This document shows, piece after piece, positions 1,250 to 38,071 of a stretch of 64,000 nucleotides of DNA. Below the pieces are notes generated by a model, which saw only the letters and a list, made by a program, of their open reading frames with translations, was not told the DNA's origin and searched no databases. The DNA is from Xanthomonas theicola (lineage in GTDB: Bacteria; Pseudomonadota; Gammaproteobacteria; Xanthomonadales; Xanthomonadaceae). The position numbers and the translations under genes are program-made. Each line of letters opens with the position of its first letter. Position 1 is the first letter of the stretch. The stretch is from the NCBI RefSeq assembly GCF_014236795.1, contig NZ_CP049017.1, positions 3,574,001 through 3,638,000 on the forward strand. Reading direction: 5' to 3'.

Positions 1250-1500
1250 GCGTGCTATCGCAATGTGCCTCGCGTCGCGGAGCGGCGGATGTACTTGTGG
1301 GTCAGCGTTGCGAACCAGCGCCCAACTTGCATGTCGGCGCGAAGTGCACTTGCAAGCGAGGATGCCGAGCAAACCAGGCGTTGATCGAAGGCGTCTTGTG
1401 CGTGCCGTAATTGTCCATCACCAGATGCACGTCCAACTCGGCGGGCACACTGGTCTTGATGGCCCGCAGGAACCGCAGGAGATCTGTGCCGCCCCATTGC
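1250..1500 (-). pseudogene. IS630-family transposase remnant
   Basis: Read on the minus strand, the sequence encodes DVHLVMDNYGTHKTPSINAW and HFAPT, the second catalytic-Asp region of IS630/Tc1-mariner transposases. After a frameshift and a small deletion it continues RWFATLTHKYIRRSATRGT, the stretch that follows the final Glu motif. The WLNQVE segment carrying that Glu is missing between the two halves. No N-terminal half is present. This dead fragment abuts the downstream end of the PqqD-like gene and may mark where a larger gene cluster was truncated. Confidence 0.8.
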
Positions 1501-1791
1501 TCAGGAACTCAACCAGCCCAGTTCTGTGAGTTCATCTATCAGTTTAATGACAGGTGCCGCAGCATCTTCTAAATCGCAATTGGCTGCTTCGGCAAGTGTC
1601 ACAACCAGATGTTCTTTGGTGCATGGTTGATGAAGCGCCTGAAGAATGACATAAGCGGCCTTATTGATGTAGGCTGCCGTCAAGGTACGATCGTCAATGA
1701 CGATAGCTCCGCCATCCTCCTCTGGCTGCAGGTGAACAGCACTGATGAGTTGCATCGTTCTTTGAGACTCGAATGACGTGTCATATTCCAT
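1501..1791 (-). CDS. PqqD-like protein (RiPP recognition element)
   Basis: This 96-residue protein has the PqqD-type winged-helix fold pattern: a beta-hairpin segment GGAIVIDDRTLTAAYINKAA, then helices containing ILQAL, the KEHLVVTLAEAANCDLEDAA segment and a terminal helix VIKLIDELTELGWL. PqqD and other RiPP recognition elements bind leader peptides and present them to modifying enzymes. The ATG at 1791 is preferred over the TTG one codon upstream. The start overlaps the 3' end of the upstream 313-residue gene by 11 nt, so the two are translationally coupled. Codon use is AT-rich compared with the flanking housekeeping genes. No radical-SAM, cyclodehydratase or lasso cyclase gene is adjacent; the downstream side is cut off by an IS630 remnant. 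Confidence 0.75.
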   Translation of the reverse strand: MEYDTSFESQRTMQLISAVHLQPEEDGGAIVIDDRTLTAAYINKAAYVILQALHQPCTKEHLVVTLAEAANCDLEDAAAPVIKLIDELTELGWLSS

Positions 1792-2722
1792 CAAGATGCG
1801 CCTCCATTGATATGAAGTCGAAATGCATACCGTTTAGACCATTGCCAATTCCTATATGGATGCCACACGCGCCTTCGTTGAGTAAGCAATTGAGATCCCA
1901 GTTCACGCGACTTAGTGGCAATATTCCTGTGCCTACAGCGACTTCCGTTATAGCCGTATAACCAGGTCCGCTCAGGGCATAGAGGCTACCCATCCAAGGA
2001 CCGAGGCCATCGACAATCCGATTGTCGCGAATCGAGAGCTGCAGGGGGCATGCCTGCCTGATTTCCTTAGCCAGTTTGGTCGCAGCAATAAAGGAAGCCG
2101 CTTTTTCAAATTTCAACTCGCGGTGCTTCGCCACCAATACAGCATCGACGCGGAACACCCCTGACATGGATAACTCTGTGTCAACATGACCAGAAAGATC
2201 GGTCGGCGACATTGCCACTTCGAAATAATTCCCAATAGTCGCATGCTCATCGGGCAGCATCGCTAGACGAGTGCGGCAAAGGAGTTGAAGGTCTTCCGAC
2301 AGACGCAACTTCAACATTGTATCGGGTCCTGACAGAGTGACCACCTCTCGAGCCAAAAGAAGTTGAGTCAGGACCCGACGATTCATGCTCACGGCCTCAG
2401 CGACATCAACTTCCGAGAACCGCTCTACGGCATATTTTGCCGTATCCACATCGGAAGAAAAAGATGCCAGCGGCATCCACAGTACGCTAGAAGCAGAAAA
2501 CATCTCGCGCAATAACTGGCGGGAAGGAAGACGCTCCCAATCCAAGGGGATTGCGAGAGCTTTTGGCGGGACGTTGCTGGTATCGCGCAGTAACTCATCA
2601 AAGGTTACCGTTTGTACTTCGGACGTTACGAGCCAATCTGCAAGCACTTGATCGTCCGTGACGATAACAGCATTGTCATTCGCAAAAATCTGATTAAGGT
2701 TTTTTTTCAATCCATCATGCAT
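1781..2722 (-). CDS. Aminopeptidase T (M29)-like metalloprotein, part of a RiPP-like cassette
   Basis: This 313-residue protein has no signal peptide. Its C-terminal half carries the metal-ligand pattern of M29 aminopeptidases (aminopeptidase T/S, AmpS): Glu in YFEVAMSP (about residue 167), Glu in AITEVAVGTG (about 259), His in GACGIHIGIG (about 287) and His-x-Asp in MHFDF (about 298-300). The linking segment LNCLLNEGACGIH also matches the family's 'L-DENA-x-H' stretch. The N-terminal half is divergent, and the protein is shorter than true M29 enzymes (about 400 residues). Directly upstream is a 74-residue ORF (20-nt gap); directly downstream is the overlapping PqqD-like gene. I infer a peptide-processing role, perhaps leader or follower trimming; an inactive, scaffold-like role is also possible. 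Confidence 0.65.
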   Translation of the reverse strand: MHDGLKKNLNQIFANDNAVIVTDDQVLADWLVTSEVQTVTFDELLRDTSNVPPKALAIPLDWERLPSRQLLREMFSASSVLWMPLASFSSDVDTAKYAVERFSEVDVAEAVSMNRRVLTQLLLAREVVTLSGPDTMLKLRLSEDLQLLCRTRLAMLPDEHATIGNYFEVAMSPTDLSGHVDTELSMSGVFRVDAVLVAKHRELKFEKAASFIAATKLAKEIRQACPLQLSIRDNRIVDGLGPWMGSLYALSGPGYTAITEVAVGTGILPLSRVNWDLNCLLNEGACGIHIGIGNGLNGMHFDFISMEAHLDGI

Positions 2723-2742
2723 GAGTTACCTCTGAGGCCGGA

Positions 2743-2967
2743 TTATTCATCATCATGCCCCTGAGGCGACGGGACATCAAGGCACGGACATGAAGGTATG
2801 TCGCCCAAGTGCGTCTTGAGAACTACAGCTTGCATGCGCTGCACATCGCTTCCACTGCTCAATGACGCAAAACGATTGCGCACATCCCCGGTGGGCAGTT
2901 GCAAAGCACGGCCGTATATGTGTCCATCGCTAGAAAAACCCTCTGCGACCCAGATGCGTCTTGCCAT
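2743..2967 (-). CDS. Small protein of unknown function in the RiPP-like cassette
   Basis: This 74-residue protein starts at ATG 2967, preceded by a GGAAAG Shine-Dalgarno; an in-frame TTG at 2982 is less likely. The N-terminal half is a mixed hydrophobic/basic domain (ARRIWVAEGFSSDGHIYGRA) and the C-terminus is GDIPSCPCLDVPSPQGHDDE, with two cysteines in a CPC motif and an acidic end. I do not recognise the family. Its place between a candidate precursor and the M29-like gene makes it either an accessory protein or a second precursor whose C-terminal CPCLDVPSP segment is the core. It ends 20 nt before the next gene and is AT-rich like its partners. Confidence 0.5.
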   Translation of the reverse strand: MARRIWVAEGFSSDGHIYGRALQLPTGDVRNRFASLSSGSDVQRMQAVVLKTHLGDIPSCPCLDVPSPQGHDDE

Positions 2968-3046
2968 TTTTTTACTTTCCAACTAACTTGGAGGATTGAA
3001 ATCTTAAATATCATCAAGCCTGGTAATTCAGATGCAAAAAACAATC

Positions 3047-3272
3047 CGATTAGCCCCGACCCTCAGCCGCAGGAATTGCGAGCCCCTCTGCGAGTCCCTC
3101 GCAGTACTGGACTGGCCACAATCCAGGCTGGAAGCGCATCACGGCTGCGGAAAGTCGCGGCAGCACTTCGCGCAGGCTAGAGCCTGAGGCTGAAACGATA
3201 GGAAGCTTCGGACAAGTTGCACCGCAAGCGACCCATGCCTGAAAGCTGGCTGAAACTCAGCGCTAATCAGGG
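3047..3272. repeat. MITE-like element, copy A (226 bp, 9-bp direct repeat)
   Basis: This non-coding element is flanked by the exact 9-bp direct repeat AAAACAATC (3038-3046 and 3273-3281), which looks like a target-site duplication. Its ends are imperfect inverted repeats (CGATTAGCCCCGACCCTCAG at the left; CTGAAACTCAGCGCTAATCAG-like at the right). A second copy lies in inverted orientation at 37857-38071 with about 85-90% identity by eye. It has no ORF, so it would be moved in trans by an unidentified transposase. It sits between the two small-peptide genes of the RiPP-like cassette and may interfere with their co-transcription. Confidence 0.75.
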
Positions 3273-3331
3273 AAAACAATCGACGCCAACCTTGAGATTG
3301 ACGTCGACTGGTAAGACCGATGGCCTGAAAA

Positions 3332-3517
3332 CTAAATTCCCGTGTAGATAATTGCCAGGAACGGCTTTGGATTTTCGGCCTCAAGCTTCATTCCGCCAGT
3401 TCCCCGATCATCATCGAGAGAGCCAAGCAAAGTGATGCTCGGAGAGTCGAGATCTCCAACCAACGATGGCTGGAATAGCGTTTTCTGCTGCTCAGCGGCA
3501 TGGCTGTGATTCATCAT
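3332..3517 (-). CDS. Candidate ribosomal peptide precursor (61 aa)
   Basis: This 61-residue ORF starts ATGATG with GAGG seven bases upstream. The N-terminal part (MMNHSHAAEQQKTLFQPSLV) is polar and helical-looking. It is followed by an acidic linker GDLDSPSITLLGSLDDD and a TGG motif (RGTGGMK), then a C-terminal segment of Pro, aromatic and aliphatic residues ending AIIYTGI. This leader-GG-core layout is typical of RiPP precursors but is not proof. It is the first gene of the AT-rich cassette and has a TTGACA -35-like promoter upstream (3572-3600). The MITE at 3047-3272 separates it from the rest. I do not recognise a family; it could also be a non-peptide small protein. Confidence 0.5.
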   Translation of the reverse strand: MMNHSHAAEQQKTLFQPSLVGDLDSPSITLLGSLDDDRGTGGMKLEAENPKPFLAIIYTGI

Positions 3518-3571
3518 TTTTATACCTCATAAGTTGAGGACGTGATCTACTATCGATCTGATCACGATCTT

Positions 3572-3600
3572 AAGCTAGGCTTTTCCCTGTTACTTGTCAA
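3572..3600 (-). promoter_or_regulatory. Candidate sigma70 promoter of the RiPP-like cassette
   Basis: On the minus strand a perfect TTGACA (3595-3600) is followed after 17 bases by TAGCTT (3572-3577), a poor -10. It lies about 55 bp upstream of the candidate precursor in an AT-rich stretch. The -35 and spacing support it; the weak -10 keeps confidence low. Confidence 0.35.
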
Positions 3601-3742: not shown

Positions 3743-4508
3743 ATGGTGGCAAGCAGCAACGCGACTCGTTTTTCAGCCTATCTGGATGAATTGTGCGCCG
3801 CACTGGGCCATGCCGATCGTGAGGCCAGGATTGCGCGGCGATTGCAGTGGGTTGATGCTGCCGCTGGAGCGCAAGAGCGTGGAGTCGTTGGCCGCGCATC
3901 TGGATCCGCTGCGGGTGCGCGCCCCCGGCATCGAGCCTTGTACAACTTCGTGTGGCCAAGTCGCAATGGTCCGATGAAGCCGTGTTGGCACGGGTACGGG
4001 AGTACGTGTCGTGGCGGATGGACTTGAAGGGCGAGGTGTACTGGATCGTGGACGACACCGGTTTTCGCAATGAAGGGGCGGCATTCGGTCGGGGTGGCCC
4101 GCCAGTAGTGCGGCGGTGAGCTTGGCAAGCAGGACAATTGCCAGGTGGCGGTGAGCGTGTCGCTGGCGAGGCCGGTGGCGAGGGCGCCCATCGCCTTCGG
4201 CCTGTACCTGCCCGAGACCTGGGCCGCCGCGACGGCCCGGCGGGAGAAGGCGGGAGTTCCCGAAGACGTGGCGTTTGCCACCAAGCCGGAGCTGGCGCTG
4301 GCGCAGATGAAAGCGGCCGATGCCGCCGGTGTGGCGCGGCACGGTGCCGGCCGATGCGGCTTATGGCAGCAACACCGCCTGGCGCGATGCGTTGGCAGCC
4401 TTGACGCTGGACGACGCGGTCGGCATCGTTTCGCGCGTGAAGGTCTGGCCACCGGGCATCACGCCCGAACCGCCGGCGCCATGGAAAGGCAAAGGCCGTC
4501 CTGCGGGG
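3743..4508 (+). pseudogene. IS701-family transposase, multiply frameshifted and truncated
   Basis: Successive frames read an IS701-type transposase: TRFSAYLDELCAALGHADRE, GLMLPLERKSVESLAAHLDP, KSQWSDEAVLARVREYVSW, VYWIVDDTGF (first catalytic Asp region), QDNCQVAVSVSLA, FGLYLPETWAA, KAGVPEDVAFATKPE, then PADAAYGSNTAWRD (second Asp) and VKVWPPGITPEPPAPWKGKG. At least four frame changes are needed, so the gene is dead. The copy ends exactly where the inverted repeat of an IS3 element begins (4509), so that element probably inserted into it and took the remainder. The in-frame ATG at 3635 upstream belongs to unrelated sequence. Confidence 0.85.
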
Positions 4509-5391
4509 TGAACCGCCCCGGCTTTTCTGGAGGCCGTTCGGTTTGAGTCCGGCCGCCTCGGCCCGACCGGCTTGCTGCCGAGGGTAAGCCGCTTCGGCTT
4601 CTGCCGGCCGGCTGTGCCCGATCGGCCCCAGCCGTCGTTTGTGGTTGTACCCGTGCACCCCATCCAGCGCGGCCGGTTCCACCTGCTCGCGGTTGCCCCA
4701 CGTCCTGCGGTGGATCACCCCGGCCTTGTACAGACCGTTGATCGTCTCGGCCAGCGCGGTGTGCCCCAGGGCAGGCTTCGCGCTCGCAGCTGTCACCGAC
4801 GCGGCCCACCGACGGCGCGATCCTGGCCTCGGTCGGCCGTTCGCTGTCGCCAATGCCGACGTATTGCACGCCGCGGTCGCGGTGATGGATCAGTGCCTGG
4901 TTTCCGACCCGCGCCCGGGCCTGCGCGGCCTGCTCCAGCGCATCGAGCACGAAGTCCCCGGCAGATCGGCTCGACCCCGTCGGCATCGCGATGCGCGGCG
5001 ACGAACCCGGTCATGGCGTGAAGCGGCGGTCCAGCTCCGCCTGGGCGAAAGACGCCGATGCCTTGCGCAGGATCCCGTTGGCCTGCCGCAGCTCCTGGAC
5101 CTGGCGCTCCAGCGCCTTCATCCGCGCCCGCGCCTGCGCCGTCAGGCCAGGCCGCAGCCCTTGGCCTTGGTCACGCTCGGCTCGGCGCACCCACCAGCGC
5201 AACGTCTCGGCCGTGCAACCGATCTTCCCGGCCATCGATTCGATCGCCGCCCACGGCGAGCCGTGCCTGTCCTGGCGCTCCAGCACCATCGGCGCCGACC
5301 GCCCCCGCACGTCCGGGGGAATACTTCACTGGCTTGCTCATGACGCCATCCTCTCAACAGTTGGAGCCTCCTGGAATCCCGCGGCGGTTCA
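4509..5391 (-). mobile_element. IS3-family element, internally deleted (883 bp)
   Basis: The ends form terminal inverted repeats: TGAACCGCCCCGGCTTTTCT at 4509 and, on the other strand from 5391, TGAACCGCCGCGGGATTCCA. Inside, on the minus strand, OrfA is recognisable (VLERQDRHGSPWAAIESMAG ... CTAETLRWWVRRAERDQG, 5011-5340) with a frameshift just after its start. OrfB starts at 5014 (MTGFVAAHRDADGVEPICR) but jumps to the C-terminal catalytic part (VGNQALIHHRDRGVQYV, LAETINGLYKAGVIHRRTWG) in several frames. About 300 bp are missing compared with a normal 1.2-kb element. The left end touches the leuB terminator hairpin. Confidence 0.85.
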
Positions 5392-8652: not shown

Positions 8653-9435
8653 TCAGGCGTGGGCCTGGGCCGACAAAATGGCGTGGAAACGCAGGCGGAC
8701 GTAGTCGGCGCTCCAGCGGCCGCGATCGTCGCACAGCGTCGGCGCCAGCAATGCGACGGCGGTGGCGAGTACGTCCTGCCGCGTCGCTGCGTCCACGCCG
8801 ATCAGGAACGGATCGGCGAAGGTGCGCAGCCAGCCGACCATGCCGGTCGGCAGCGGCGTGGGCCGCGGCAGCAGTGCGATCTGCGTGACCTGGAAGCCGT
8901 GCGCCTGCAGGCGCTGCGCATAGGCGTCGGCGCTGGGAAAGAACCAGGCGAACGCCGGCGCCGGCACGCCATGCAGGCGCCGCGCCGCATGCAGCGCGGT
9001 GACGATCGCCGCCACGTTGCCGTGGCCGCCGAATTCGCCGACGAAGCGCCCGCCCGGGCGCAGTGCGCGGCGTACGCCGTCCAGCACCCGGTCCGGCTCG
9101 CGCATCCAGTGCAGCGCGGCGTTGCTGAACACCGCATCGAAGCGCGGCTCGAACGCCAGCGCGTGGCCGTCCAGCACCTGCGCCTCCACTCCGCGTGCGC
9201 GTGCGGCGGCGACCAACTCCGGCGAGGCGTCCACGCCGAGGACGTCGGCGCCGCTGGCGGCCAGCCTGGCGGTCAGCACGCCGTCGCCGCAGCCTAGGTC
9301 GAGGATCCGTTCGCCCGGCTGCGGTGCCAGCAGATCCAGCACCGGCGCGCCCAGCGCCGGCACGAAGCCGGCGTCGTCGGCATAGCCCTGCGCGTTCCAG
9401 CACTGGCCGGCGGCGGGCACGATGCTCGCGCTCAT
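8653..9435 (-). CDS. Class I SAM-dependent methyltransferase within the leu operon
   Basis: This 260-residue methyltransferase starts at ATG 9435, four bases after the leuA stop; longer upstream extensions are just Pro/Arg-rich read-through of leuA. SAM-binding motif I is ILDLGCGDGVLTARLA and is followed by the acidic end of strand 2 (VLGVDAS) and FDAVFSNAALHWM, typical of the Methyltransf_11/25 group (trans-aconitate methyltransferase-like). The substrate is unknown. Trans-aconitate and related tricarboxylates are inhibitors of aconitase-type enzymes, so a gene next to leuC could serve to detoxify such an inhibitor, but that is inference. Its position between leuA and leuC with tight spacing shows it is part of the operon. 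Confidence 0.85.
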   Translation of the reverse strand: MSASIVPAAGQCWNAQGYADDAGFVPALGAPVLDLLAPQPGERILDLGCGDGVLTARLAASGADVLGVDASPELVAAARARGVEAQVLDGHALAFEPRFDAVFSNAALHWMREPDRVLDGVRRALRPGGRFVGEFGGHGNVAAIVTALHAARRLHGVPAPAFAWFFPSADAYAQRLQAHGFQVTQIALLPRPTPLPTGMVGWLRTFADPFLIGVDAATRQDVLATAVALLAPTLCDDRGRWSADYVRLRFHAILSAQAHA

Positions 9436-10999: not shown

Positions 11000-12102
11000 C
11001 AGATGGTTTCCTCTACGGCGGCGGTGGCTGGCGGATGGGGGAGCGGGGAAGCGGGGCGGGCGGGAGCGGGCGGGGCGGCGGCACGTTGGTTGCGAAGTCG
11101 CTCGGCACTGCGGCGGCGCGGCTTGCGCGGCGCGCGCGGGCGCACCTCCGACAGCAGCGTCGCCAGCATGCCGGCGTCGATGTTGCCACCGGACACCACC
11201 GCGCACTTGCGCTTGCCGGCGACGCGGCGGCCGGCCGCCAGGGCCAGCGCGCCGGCGCCCTCGGCGATGACGTGCTCCTCCAGCGCCAGGCGGACCAGCG
11301 TTTCGCGCAGTTCCGCCTCGCGCACGATCACCACGTCGTCGAGTAGGCTGGCGCACAGCCGGCGGGTGACGAACCCGGGGATTTTAACCTTGACGCCGTC
11401 GGCCAGGGTGGGCAACGGGTCGATCGCGCGGAGATCGCCGCGGATCGCCCGCGCCATCGAATCCACGCCCTCGACCTGCGCGCCGACGATGCGCACGCCC
11501 TGCGAGCGCAGCGCCAGGGCCACCCCGGCGGCCAGGCCGCCGCCGCCGATCGGCACGATCACCACGTCCGGGGCGTGCGCGGCCAGCTCGATGCCGACCG
11601 TGCCCTGGCCGGCGATCACGTCCGGGTCGTCGAACGCGGACAGGAAGCGGTAGCCGTTCTGCTCGGCCAGGTCGCGGGCGAAGCCGTAGGCCTCGTCGTA
11701 GCTGTTGCCGTGCTGGCGCACGGTGGCGCCCCAGTGCGCGACGCCGGCGATCTTGGTCTGCGGCGCGCCGTGCGGCATCACCGTGATCGCCTGCGCGCCC
11801 AGCCGATGCGCCGCCCAGGCCACGCCCTGCGCGTGGTTGCCGGCCGAGGCGCAGATGATGGTGCGCTCGTCGCCGCGCTCCAGCCCGGCCAGCAGCGCAT
11901 TCAGCGCGCCGCGCACCTTGTAGGATCCGGTGCGCTGCAGGTTCTCCAGCTTCAGCCACACGCCGAAGCGCTCGGCGTAGTGCAGCGGCGTCGGCGGCAG
12001 GTAGCGGCGCAGCCGCGCCTGCGCGGCCAGCACGTCGGCGACGCTGACCGCTACGTCGCCTACGTCCGGTTCCTTGGGGGCGGGACGGCCGCGGTCAGGC
12101 AT
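10996..12102 (-). CDS. ilvA: Threonine dehydratase (short form, no clear ACT-like domain)
   Basis: This PLP enzyme deaminates threonine to 2-ketobutyrate for isoleucine synthesis. The chosen ATG at 12102 gives 368 residues; the frame stays open upstream through a GGGACTC repeat that is unlikely to be coding. The PLP lysine lies in [11 protein letters not shown], the phosphate-binding glycine loop is IGGGGLAAG, and [14 protein letters not shown] is the Asn loop. The classical E. coli IlvA is about 514 residues with two regulatory ACT-like domains. Here the catalytic domain is followed only by a Pro/Arg/Ala-rich tail, as in catabolic or short forms. Position in the ilv/leu operon supports a biosynthetic role. 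Confidence 0.92.
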
Positions 12103-12112
12103 GGGGCTGCCG

Positions 12113-12296
12113 CCGGGACTCGGGACTCGGGACTCGGGACCCGGAAAGCGGGTGGGCGCGAAGAAGACTCCTCCGTGGAAGAAGGCGCCTCCGCGCCGTC
12201 GCGCGGCGCTGCCGCACGGCCGGCATGAAGCCCGAGACCAGGGAGCTGCCAGCGCCGCCCACGAGTCCCGGGTCCCGAGTCCCAAGTCCCGACCTG
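12113..12296. repeat. Paired inverted GGGACTC repeat clusters
   Basis: At 12116-12146 GGGACTC is repeated four times, ending GGGACCCGG. At about 12262-12292 the complementary GAGTCCCGGGTCCCGAGTCCC cluster occurs, so the two arrays can pair into a long stem enclosing about 115 bp. The spacer is GC-rich and non-coding. Similar paired clusters occur at 58976-59090 and 63186-63306, and a single one at 55036-55062. It lies between ilvM and ilvA in the operon. Confidence 0.7.
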
Positions 12297-12297
12297 T

Positions 12298-12546
12298 TCA
12301 TGGCGTCCCATCCAGCGCGGTGACCCGCACCGACTCGCAGTCGTACACCTTCTCCATCTGCAGGCGCAGGCTCTCGCCGGGGCGGCTGCCGTCGACCACC
12401 ATCTGCAGGTGCCAGCGGCCGGCGTCGTCGGCCACCGGCGCGCCGGTGATCGACAGCGGCGCGAAGCCGCGGCGCTCGGCCATGCCGATCGCGCGCAGCA
12501 AGGCGCCTTCGGCCGGCTTCAGCACCAGGTCAAGCTGGTATCGCAT
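12298..12546 (-). CDS. ilvM: Acetolactate synthase small (ACT) subunit, IlvM-like
   Basis: This 82-residue protein is a single ACT domain: LDLVLKPAEGALLRAIGMAERRGFAPLSITGAPV is the beta-alpha-beta start with the amino-acid-binding turn, followed by HLQMVVDGSRPGESLRLQMEKVYDC. IlvM-type subunits stimulate and sometimes confer valine control on the acetolactate synthase II-type large subunit. It begins inside the 3' end of ilvG (17-nt overlap), which is standard ilvGM architecture. Its length is that of the short IlvM form rather than the roughly 160-residue IlvH. Confidence 0.9.
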   Translation of the reverse strand: MRYQLDLVLKPAEGALLRAIGMAERRGFAPLSITGAPVADDAGRWHLQMVVDGSRPGESLRLQMEKVYDCESVRVTALDGTP

Positions 12547-14251
12547 GGGGGATCTCCTGGCGCTGGGTCGCGGGGTTGCTCTCCAGCATGGTGCTGTTGG
12601 CGGTGTTCGGCGGCACCAGCGGCCACACGTTGGCGCGCGCGTCGATGGCCACGTGCAGCAGCGCCGGGCCCGGCTGCGCCAGCAGGTCGGCCAGGCCGTC
12701 CTCGACCTGGCCGCGCGCGGTGATGCGCTTGGCCGGGATGCCGAACACCTGCGCCAGCGCGGCGAAGTCCGGGTTGTCGGACAGGTCGATGGCGCTGTAG
12801 CGCTCGGCGAAGAACAGCTCCTGCCACTGCCGCACCATGCCCAACGAACTGTTGTCCAGCAGCACGATCTTCACCGGCAGCCGGCAGCGCGCGATGGTGA
12901 CCAGCTCCTGCACGTTCATCATGAAACTGCCGTCGCCGCTGACCAGCACCACGGTGCGATCGGGGCAGGCGAACTGCGCGCCCATCGCCGCCGGCAGGCC
13001 GAAGCCCATCGTGCCCAGCGCGCCGCTGGTCAGGTGGTTGCGCGGGTGGTTGAAGCGGCAATGCTGGGCCACCCACATCTGATGCTGGCCGACGTCGCAG
13101 GCGATCACCGTGTCGGCCGGAGCCAGCTCGCTCAGCCGCTTCAGCAGGCCGGGCGCGTAGATGTCCTCGCCCGGCGCGTCGTAGCGGGCGCCGAACTTCT
13201 CGCGATGGCCGACGCAGCGCGCGTGCCAGGCCTCGCAGGTGATGGTGGCCGCGCTCAGCGCGCGCAGCGCCCCGGCCACGTCGCCGGGCACGGCGATGTC
13301 GGCATGGCGCAGCTTGGATATCTCGCAGGCATCGGCGTCCAGATGGATGACGCGCGCGAACGGGGCGAACTCGGCCAGCTTGCCGGTGGCGCGGTCGTCG
13401 AAGCGCGCACCGACCACGATCAGCAGGTCCGATTCCTGCACCGCCATGTTGGCGGCGCGGGTGCCGTGCATGCCGAGCATGCCCAGGTAGTGCGGATGCC
13501 CGTGCGGCAGCGCACCGAGCCCGCGCAGGGTCAGCACGGTGGGAATGCGGGTGGCGTCCACGAACTGGCCGAACGCGTCCACCGCGTCGGCCAGGGCGAT
13601 GCCGCCGCCGCCGTAGATCACCGGCTTGTCGGCGCCGGCGATCGCCGCCAGCGCCTCGGCCAGCGCCGCGGCGGACGGCGCCGGCGGCGCCGGCACCGCG
13701 GCCGGCACATGCTCGGGCAGCTGCGAGGCGTCGGCCAGCTGCACGTCCTTGGGCAGGTCGATCAGCACCGGCCCCGGACGCCCCTCGCGGGCGATGCGGA
13801 ACGCGTCGCGCACCACCTGCGGCAGGTCTTCCACGCGGCGCACCAGGAAGCTGTGCTTGACGATCGGCAGGGTCAGCCCGAACACGTCCAGTTCCTGGAA
13901 CGCGTCGGTGCCCAGCAGCGGTGTGGCGACCTGCCCGGTCAGGCAGATCATCGGCACCGAGTCCAGCATCGCGTCGGCGATGCCGGTGACCAGGTTGGAG
14001 GCGCCCGGGCCGGACGTGGCGACGCAGACCCCGACCCGCCCGCTGGCGCGGGCGTAGCCGTTGGCGGCCAGCGCCGCGCCCTGCTCGTGGCGGACCAGGA
14101 TGTGCTTGAGCTGGCTGTCTACCAGCGCGTCGTAGAACGGCATGATGGTGCCGCCCGGATAGCCGAACAGCGTGTCCACGCCTTCGGCTTCCAGGGCCTG
14201 CGTCAGCCAGCGCGCGCCGTTGCCGGGCGTGCCGTGAGCGGAGGAGTTCAT
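12530..14251 (-). CDS. ilvG: Acetolactate synthase large subunit
   Basis: This ThDP- and FAD-dependent enzyme joins pyruvate to pyruvate or 2-ketobutyrate for valine/leucine and isoleucine synthesis. The 573 residues are of normal length. Motifs: FGYPGGTIMPFYDAL, the activating Glu in RHEQGAALAANGYA, SGPGASNLVTGIADA, and the ThDP/Mg motif GDGSFMMNVQELVTIAR ending in LLDNSSLGMVRQWQ. It follows ilvC by 43 nt and overlaps ilvM. The short ACT partner suggests the IlvGM class (isoenzyme II type). Confidence 0.97.
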   Translation of the reverse strand: MNSSAHGTPGNGARWLTQALEAEGVDTLFGYPGGTIMPFYDALVDSQLKHILVRHEQGAALAANGYARASGRVGVCVATSGPGASNLVTGIADAMLDSVPMICLTGQVATPLLGTDAFQELDVFGLTLPIVKHSFLVRRVEDLPQVVRDAFRIAREGRPGPVLIDLPKDVQLADASQLPEHVPAAVPAPPAPSAAALAEALAAIAGADKPVIYGGGGIALADAVDAFGQFVDATRIPTVLTLRGLGALPHGHPHYLGMLGMHGTRAANMAVQESDLLIVVGARFDDRATGKLAEFAPFARVIHLDADACEISKLRHADIAVPGDVAGALRALSAATITCEAWHARCVGHREKFGARYDAPGEDIYAPGLLKRLSELAPADTVIACDVGQHQMWVAQHCRFNHPRNHLTSGALGTMGFGLPAAMGAQFACPDRTVVLVSGDGSFMMNVQELVTIARCRLPVKIVLLDNSSLGMVRQWQELFFAERYSAIDLSDNPDFAALAQVFGIPAKRITARGQVEDGLADLLAQPGPALLHVAIDARANVWPLVPPNTANSTMLESNPATQRQEIPHAIPA

Positions 14252-37634: not shown

Positions 37635-37856
37635 ATGCAGCCCATGCACAATAATCGGACGCACGCGAGCGGAGCCGGCGCGGCCTCTGCTGCCAACGGG
37701 CTGGAACTGATGAATCTGCGTTCCACCAGCCGCGATGCTCGGATGGAGCCGGTGTCCGCCGCAGTGCTCTCCTGCGCAACCAACGCCGTGAGCTGATCGA
37801 GATCGCCCCCCTTAACAGGCTGCTGAAATACTGGTCGACAGCCTTCAAAAGTCGAC

Positions 37857-38071
37857 CTGATTAGCCCTGATTCTCAGCCAGCTTTCAGGCATGGGCCGCT
37901 TACGGTGCGACTTGTCCGAAGCTTCCTATCGTTTCAACCTCAACCTCAGGCTTTGCCTGCGCGAAGTGCTGGCGCGACTTTCCGCAGCCGTGATGCGCTT
38001 CCAGCCTGGACTGTGGCCTGTTCTGCGAGGGACTCGCCATTGCAGCGGCTGAGGGTCAGGGCTAATCAGGA
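37857..38071. repeat. MITE-like element, copy B (215 bp)
   Basis: This is the inverted counterpart of 3047-3272; ends CTGATTAGCCCTGATTCTCA and GAGGGTCAGGGCTAATCAGG are inverted repeats. AAAGTC flanks both sides (37848-37853 and 38072-38077) with 7 of 9 bases matching as a direct repeat. No ORF. Confidence 0.75.

Follow-up and report, generated by a model that had tools for sequence, protein, structure and literature searches.

What might be made by a group of four genes that encodes two short peptides, a zinc-ligand protein of 313 amino acids (aa) and a small PqqD-like protein? Such a group lies near the start of a 64,000-nucleotide stretch of Xanthomonas theicola DNA (contig NZ_CP049017.1, positions 3,574,001 to 3,638,000), referred to below, at its full length, as the window. 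The favoured explanation, to which we give a probability of roughly 0.7, is that the genes together constitute a compact peptide-modification system of the type that produces ribosomally synthesized and post-translationally modified peptides (RiPPs). The group is regarded as a candidate for a new RiPP-type cassette that is akin to the crocagin clusters without being one of them. Its open reading frames (ORFs) and motifs are the following.

1501-1791, minus strand: PqqD-like ORF, 96 aa counted from the ATG at 1791
1781-2722, minus strand: CgnB-like ORF, 313 aa
2743-2967, minus strand: CPC peptide ORF, 74 aa
2782-2790, minus strand: CPC motif of the 74-aa peptide, present in 73 of 73 homologues
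3277-3310, minus strand: RNA hairpin of 15 pairs followed by a T-run, attenuator- or terminator-like, from the terminator scan, between the precursor and CPC genes
3332-3517, minus strand: short peptide ORF, 61 aa (60 aa if the second ATG is used)
3335-3355, minus strand: AIIYTGI, predicted core at the C-terminal end of the 61-aa peptide
3440-3451, minus strand: LDSP (LxxP) leader segment, by its motif the predicted PqqD-binding site

The PqqD-like and 313-aa ORFs overlap by 11 nt (1781-1791), and a gap of 20 nt (2723-2742) separates the latter from the 74-aa ORF. Without an inserted repeat, the cassette has a GC content of 49.8%, versus 68.1% for window positions 6001-64000. Coordinates and composition thus bear out the four tightly coupled minus-strand ORFs of low GC described in the initial annotation. 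In seven related loci the GC difference between cassette and flanks is smaller, ranging from -9 to +3 points.

By sequence comparison, the 313-aa protein is a member of the CgnB/CgnE peptide-binding family of crocagin biosynthesis. A phmmer search of the PDB aligns its residues 15-310 with entry 6zsv (E-value 4.1e-9), and 6zsu (CgnE) is matched at 5.1e-4; a profile of eight family members finds the CgnB/CgnE chains at 1.1e-34 and 6.1e-18. Entry 6zsv, labelled 'Uncharacterized protein' in the PDB table, is taken here to be CgnB because the six zinc ligands named for CgnB (E161, E252, E274, H280, H291 and D293; PMC10070186) line up in the alignment, the PDB chain numbering being offset by 8, as counted by hand, from that of the paper. 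Their counterparts in the 313-aa protein, its predicted zinc ligands, are E168, E260, E283, H289, H300 and D302, so that 6/6 ligands are kept, in agreement with the earlier proposal of an intact metal site. Among the 75 database proteins that match the family at an E-value of 1e-3, all six ligands are complete in 70, the exceptions being altered sites in P0050, P0069 and P0073, one change together with a short end in P0071, and the fragment P0075; in a wider set of eight rows the ligands are invariant. The precomputed domain PF26231 is assigned to all 75 of these listed homologues, some of which bear the name 'Crocagin biosynthetic protein' in their source; PF26231 was not reported for the 313-aa protein itself by a scan with a local Pfam copy. 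A classical M29 peptidase was rejected at the level of sequence, with no PF02073 match at E-values up to 10 and no match to an M29 chain in the PDB. What survives of the M29-like assignment in the initial annotation is a proposed descent, since the crocagin authors derive the CgnB/CgnE fold from M29 aminopeptidases (PMC10070186). The genome of the window has no other CgnB-type gene, a search at E-values up to 10 giving one match in total.

The PqqD-like protein matches PF05402 with an E-value of 1.1e-5, above the Pfam cut-off; the earlier views of a PqqD-type protein and of a RiPP-like locus are both supported. Its closest NCBIfam match is NF033530, the PqqD-family chaperones of lasso peptides (E-value 9.3e-7, below cut-off). 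It is predicted from its sequence to be a RiPP recognition element (RRE). PqqD-type RREs occur in groups predicted to bind segments of the W/Y/LxxP type, LxxP being a named variant of the recognition sequence (PMC12710340). In at least three homologues (P0010, P0014 and the Marinobacter protein P0070) the CgnB-like and PqqD parts are fused.

The 61-aa peptide is, by sequence, a candidate RiPP precursor. At an E-value of 1e-3 its family comprises 77 database proteins, of which 74 contain the pattern [LFIMV]xxPx[ILVM] and 57 a strict LxxP. The distance from the LxxP-type motif to the core tyrosine is 35 residues in 57 of the 65 homologues measurable by pattern. The initial annotation had expected a conserved leader and a variable core; the reverse was found, the C-terminal AIIY being the best-conserved part of the family. 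In the 67 of 77 precursors whose end reads [IVM][IL]Y followed by one, two or three residues, the columns anchored on the tyrosine are A (94%), I (96%) and I (96%) before it and N (70%), G (84%) and I (78%) after it. Five of the 77 have a four-residue tail, four carry His or Cys in place of the tyrosine, and in P0134 the core lies inside a longer frame. None of the 77 listed precursors ends in Tyr-Trp. In precursor P0076 the leader segment SLDDDQGTS is internally duplicated. The hairpin that follows the precursor gene in the window has a folding z-score of -5.74, and 0 of 200 shuffled sequences fold as well. Scores below -2 are found in five of eight loci, namely the window, L003 (-6.16), L008 (-2.80), L007 (-2.42) and L004 (-2.13).

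The 74-aa peptide has an N-terminal region RRIWVAEG...YGR and the C-terminal sequence GDIPSCPC. Its family of 73 database proteins (E-value 1e-3) retains CPC throughout, and the N-terminal part is also well conserved. AlphaFold2 yields only an N-terminal β-hairpin (mean pLDDT 59.8, pTM 0.29), and the peptide is accordingly predicted by this model to be mostly unstructured. Between loci L004 and L005, a single pair with few differences, the ratio of nonsynonymous to synonymous substitution rates (dN/dS) is 0.15 for the 61-aa family, 0.20 for the CPC family and 0.15 for the CgnB-like family, so that both peptide genes look to be under purifying selection in this one genome pair.

A scan of genome contigs gave nine loci, and all seven-locus counts refer to L002-L008, leaving out L009 (26% identity) and L010 (a fragment). 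The order short peptide, CPC peptide, CgnB-like protein, PqqD is identical in all seven, with the CPC frame shifted in L002, the PqqD frame split in L008, and the CgnB-like and PqqD parts forming one protein in L006. The main test proposed in the initial annotation, whether both small ORFs recur beside the PqqD and large genes elsewhere, thus has a positive outcome in 7/7 loci, which span other genera and phyla (Pseudomonadota and Actinomycetota). Pairwise distances of the four proteins correlate with r = 0.65-0.91 over 6-8 loci, a pattern that inheritance of the genes as one unit would give; the permutation counts are 7/5040, 33/5000, 62/5040, 17/5040, 8/720 and 4/5040. This test omitted the split PqqD of L008 and the frame-shifted CPC peptide of L002, and used a PqqD piece of L004 that begins a few codons upstream of the likely start. 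By a rough co-occurrence proxy on database entries, in which entries are paired when their longest contigs are equally long, 43 of 75 CgnB-like entries pair with a listed precursor or CPC entry and 24 with both; its roughness is apparent from P0009, scored as a miss while its locus L002 holds both peptides.

Flanks were compared for the seven loci and the first 14 kb of the window, using all stop-to-stop frames of at least 60 aa at an E-value of 1e-8. No gene family beyond the cassette occurs in three or more of these eight flanks, where genes shorter than 60 aa or diverged could escape. Families shared by two flanks are the radical S-adenosylmethionine (SAM) region of L004 and L005, with antisense frames, and a transposase of L008 and the window; further single pairs are L002-L007, L003-window, L006-L008 and a 36-aa match between L004 and L005. 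In the Streptomyces locus L004 a RiPP radical-SAM C-methyltransferase (TIGR03975, E-value 7.6e-194) directly follows PqqD at 11192-13210, and its counterpart in Streptomyces locus L005, starting at 11222, is 88% identical and overlaps PqqD by ATGA. TIGR03975 is absent from the genome of the window, in which other radical-SAM families were not searched. Relatives of the enzyme occur away from the cassette in the OK074 genome (36%, on another contig) and in Paracidovorax (27%, partial, elsewhere). A Pfam scan of 29 selected neighbour ORFs of the relatives, not all of them, gave one evident RiPP enzyme, the radical-SAM protein of L004; unshared neighbours include an M48 peptidase (L002), a methyltransferase and a cupin (L003), and a gamma-glutamyltranspeptidase (L004). 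The earlier suspicion that part of the cluster may be missing from the window is not borne out, as its gene set equals that of 5/7 relatives, only L004 and L005 adding a radical-SAM gene.

We infer the binding, catalysis, product and role of the cassette as follows. The first gene would make the precursor peptide, and the hairpin behind it would raise precursor over enzyme expression. PqqD would bind the LxxP leader segment and hand the peptide to the CgnB-like zinc protein, its occasional fusion partner. The latter, alone or with an unlinked host enzyme, may then modify or cleave the core in the region of AIIY, at a site of action that usually lies at the fixed 35-residue distance from the leader motif. 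The CPC peptide would be a dedicated partner, serving as a second substrate or an adaptor peptide. This division of labour is proposed because CgnB, which binds its precursor, 'appears to possess catalytic activity', CgnE seeming only to present the precursor (PMC10070186), and because of the segment preference predicted for PqqD-type RREs (PMC12710340). Since the core is near-invariant in two phyla and the flanks examined share no transporter or immunity gene, a diversified antibiotic is less likely than one small conserved product that resembles a cofactor or signal. A cofactor role for the AIIY product is a hypothesis, by analogy with mycofactocin. The most specific form of the proposal remains tentative: a minimal RiPP class in which a lone PqqD-guided CgnB-like di-zinc protein modifies the AIIY core into one cofactor- or signal-like molecule in Pseudomonadota and Actinomycetota, the CPC peptide being either an obligate partner or a further substrate. 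If this were true, the class would have just two conserved large proteins, one to bind the leader and one a zinc protein of the CgnB type, and what CgnB catalyses could be tested where no dioxygenase is evident. From so uniform a core one would expect both phyla to make the same product, perhaps a novel cofactor or signal.

Several observations weigh against a RiPP-type system. PF05402 is matched at an E-value of 1e-3 in only 4/7 PqqD members, the PqqD profile finds no convincing match in the PDB (best E-value 0.15), the PqqD frame of L008 is split, and the PqqD dN/dS between L004 and L005 is 0.58, from few differences. L006 has no hairpin signal (z = 0.02), and the signal is weak in L005 (-1.73) and L002 (-1.18). 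Most RiPP families differ from this one in not having a conserved core, and linked genes that simply share their descent would also show correlated distances. Moreover, the loci have no modifying enzyme of a known RiPP class in common, so that catalysis by the CgnB-like protein remains a prediction.

Relatives outside the close set bear on the question which peptide the CgnB-like protein acts upon. Five distant CgnB-like loci give no match to hidden Markov models (HMMs) that were made from the close relatives for PqqD and for each of the two peptide families. The ORF directly upstream of the CgnB-like gene ends in TCPCTSI in a Ktedonobacterales genome (L009:9529-9831), in GCPCGTF on a Deinococcus plasmid (L026:6620-6916) and in TCPCGVGI on a Thermus plasmid (L027:6668-6925), these two plasmids giving the only CgnB-like matches, both distant, in a plasmid collection. 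The L026 ORF contains a segment like EVKFSYAPE repeated three times. In L023 (7060-7212) and L024 (7431-7640) the upstream peptide ends in VKAYVY and lacks CPC, and these two are possibly a further RiPP-type locus; a frame judged by reading to be like the major facilitator superfamily lies downstream of the CgnB-like gene in both. The small peptides that adjoin the CgnB-like family are thus of two types, one with an aromatic terminal or near-terminal residue and one with CPC, and both types are represented in the cassette of the window.

These arrangements make it conceivable, if doubtful, that the CgnB-like protein in fact acts on the CPC peptide, with the AIIY peptide serving as a further substrate or a PqqD-bound regulator. 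In L002-L008 the CPC gene is the immediate upstream neighbour of the CgnB-like gene, a CPC-ending ORF takes this place in L009, L026 and L027, where the PqqD and peptide HMMs are silent, and the motif is universal in a family whose window member is predicted to be largely disordered. Against this stand the CPC-free upstream peptides of L023 and L024, the failure of the distant CPC-ending peptides to match the 74-aa family HMM, and the well-conserved N-terminal part, by which the peptide may be an accessory protein. The window copy could also be a non-functional relic between insertion-sequence remnants, with transposase remnants on both sides, an internal repeat, a single carrier among the 395 family genomes, and decayed cassette copies elsewhere (L025 and L010); this is unlikely in view of four open frames and of the preserved six ligands, LxxP, core, CPC and hairpin.

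Rather less probable is a non-biosynthetic proteolytic or regulatory module, consisting of a CgnB-like aminopeptidase with the peptides as regulators. The M29-derived fold family and kept zinc ligands would suit it, but CgnB and CgnE showed no aminopeptidase activity (PMC10070186), and PqqD, together with the RiPP radical-SAM enzyme in two loci, speaks for peptide modification. Very improbable is a reduced crocagin-type alkaloid pathway making a pyrroloindoline. It would account for a CgnB-family protein with an intact zinc site and for the aromatic residue near the precursor C-terminus, yet the core AIIYxGI has no Tyr-Trp pair, the genome holds one CgnB-type gene, and no dioxygenase family was found among the 29 scanned neighbour ORFs of relatives, CgnC itself not having been used as a query.

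In sampled genomes the cassette protein is rare and patchy, as is evident from the low counts per group. The CgnB-like protein occurs in 1/395 genomes of the family of the window and in 1/398 of its phylum, in both cases the genome of the window itself. The genus set of the L004 genome has 5/392 carriers, two with the cassette, two distant (G900 and G1116) and one decayed (G1066). The family of the Ralstonia genome gives 1/398, again that genome itself, and the class of the Ktedonobacterales genome (1/47) and the family of the OK074 genome (1/150) likewise give the starting genomes only. In a tree of 27 CgnB-like rows the actinobacterial rows group with modest support (77/81); for this tree a single change between Actinomycetota and Pseudomonadota suffices, so that repeated transfer between phyla is not shown. 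A virus-borne origin is without support in IMG/VR, where none of 35 stretches with the pattern was confirmed.

The surroundings of the cassette in the window contain the following elements.

133-951: integrase-core ORF
1302-1448, minus strand: DDE_3 transposase remnant downstream of the cassette (PF13358, E-value 1.1e-4, below the Pfam cut-off)
3048-3271, no strand: MITE-like interspersed repeat with four other genome copies of 80-83% identity
3952-4546, plus strand: DDE_5 remnants upstream of the cassette (PF13546; 4145-4546, E-value 2.9e-11; 3952-4119, E-value 2e-4, below cut-off)
5011-5310: HTH_Tnp_1

The initial annotation had the cassette cut by transposase remnants and interrupted by a miniature inverted-repeat transposable element (MITE). 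The remnants are real, as judged from the DDE_3, DDE_5, integrase-core and HTH_Tnp_1 matches; the assignment of DDE_3 to IS630 and of DDE_5 to IS701, like the name IS3, is presumptive. The repeat is equally real, and it sits between the 61-aa and 74-aa genes, where no ORF is broken. One further copy lies inside the window at 37856-38067 and three elsewhere in the genome. A glutamine-rich frame without a Pfam match lies at 952-1410, flanked by the integrase-core ORF and the DDE_3 remnant. The Ralstonia sp. A12 locus L008 has the same kinds of remnants on both cassette sides, with DDE_3 upstream at 8772-8909 and DDE_5, integrase core and HTH_Tnp_1 downstream at 11553-12975. The single upstream promoter claimed earlier was not recovered: upstream of 3517 the promoter scan gives no site on the minus strand, and the numbers of promoters and terminators that it predicts are near those of shuffled sequence; a TTGACA visible by eye at 3600-3595 has no good -10 element.

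As regards novelty, full-text searches of open-licence PMC papers gave none that contains 'CgnB' together with 'PqqD', the string IIYNGI, or 'RiPP' with 'PqqD' and 'aminopeptidase T', and 'CgnB' and 'CgnE' occur together only in the crocagin paper PMC10070186. The initial annotation knew of no RiPP class pairing a PqqD-type with an M29-like protein; crocagin does use an M29-derived protein, and 'PqqD' is absent from the main text of PMC10070186. The supplements of that paper report putative precursors for single-copy CgnB homologues, and some precursor peptides of the cassette type may already be listed there.

The cassette can be compared with several known systems. A fit to anti-phage defence was rejected, no PADLOC model being matched at E-values up to 0.1. 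The hallmark tetracycle of crocagin needs a C-terminal Trp. Like the crocagin cluster, the cassette has a CgnB/CgnE-family protein with six kept ligands beside a short precursor that has an aromatic residue close to the C-terminus. Unlike it, the cassette contains one CgnB-type copy instead of two, PqqD, a longer leader and an extra CPC peptide, and its core is AIIYxGI instead of IYW. A counterpart of the crocagin protein CgnC, sought as a dioxygenase family, was not seen among the neighbour ORFs scanned, and a full crocagin cluster was rejected on the single CgnB-type gene and the lack of a Tyr-Trp precursor end. For the M29 aminopeptidases (aminopeptidase T, PepS and AMPS), from which the fold and the metal site of CgnB are proposed to stem (PMC10070186), the likeness does not extend to a sequence match. 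With the lasso-peptide PqqD-family chaperones the cassette shares its closest NCBIfam match and an LxxP-type leader motif, but unlike lasso clusters it has no cyclase or B2 protease; such a cluster was rejected, as no cyclase or leader protease family is shared across the flanks or found among the scanned ORFs and the cassette is bounded by transposase remnants. Further parallels are the pathways of pyrroloquinoline quinone (PQQ) and mycofactocin, the latter described (PMC3023750) as having an invariant core, a sporadic presence and no transporter or immunity gene. With these systems the cassette shares a PqqD-type or putative binding protein, a near-invariant short C-terminal core and a sporadic distribution, and, with mycofactocin, the lack of a transporter or immunity gene shared among the flanks compared. 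It differs from both in that no radical-SAM gene lies beside it in 5/7 loci, and a CgnB-like protein is present instead.

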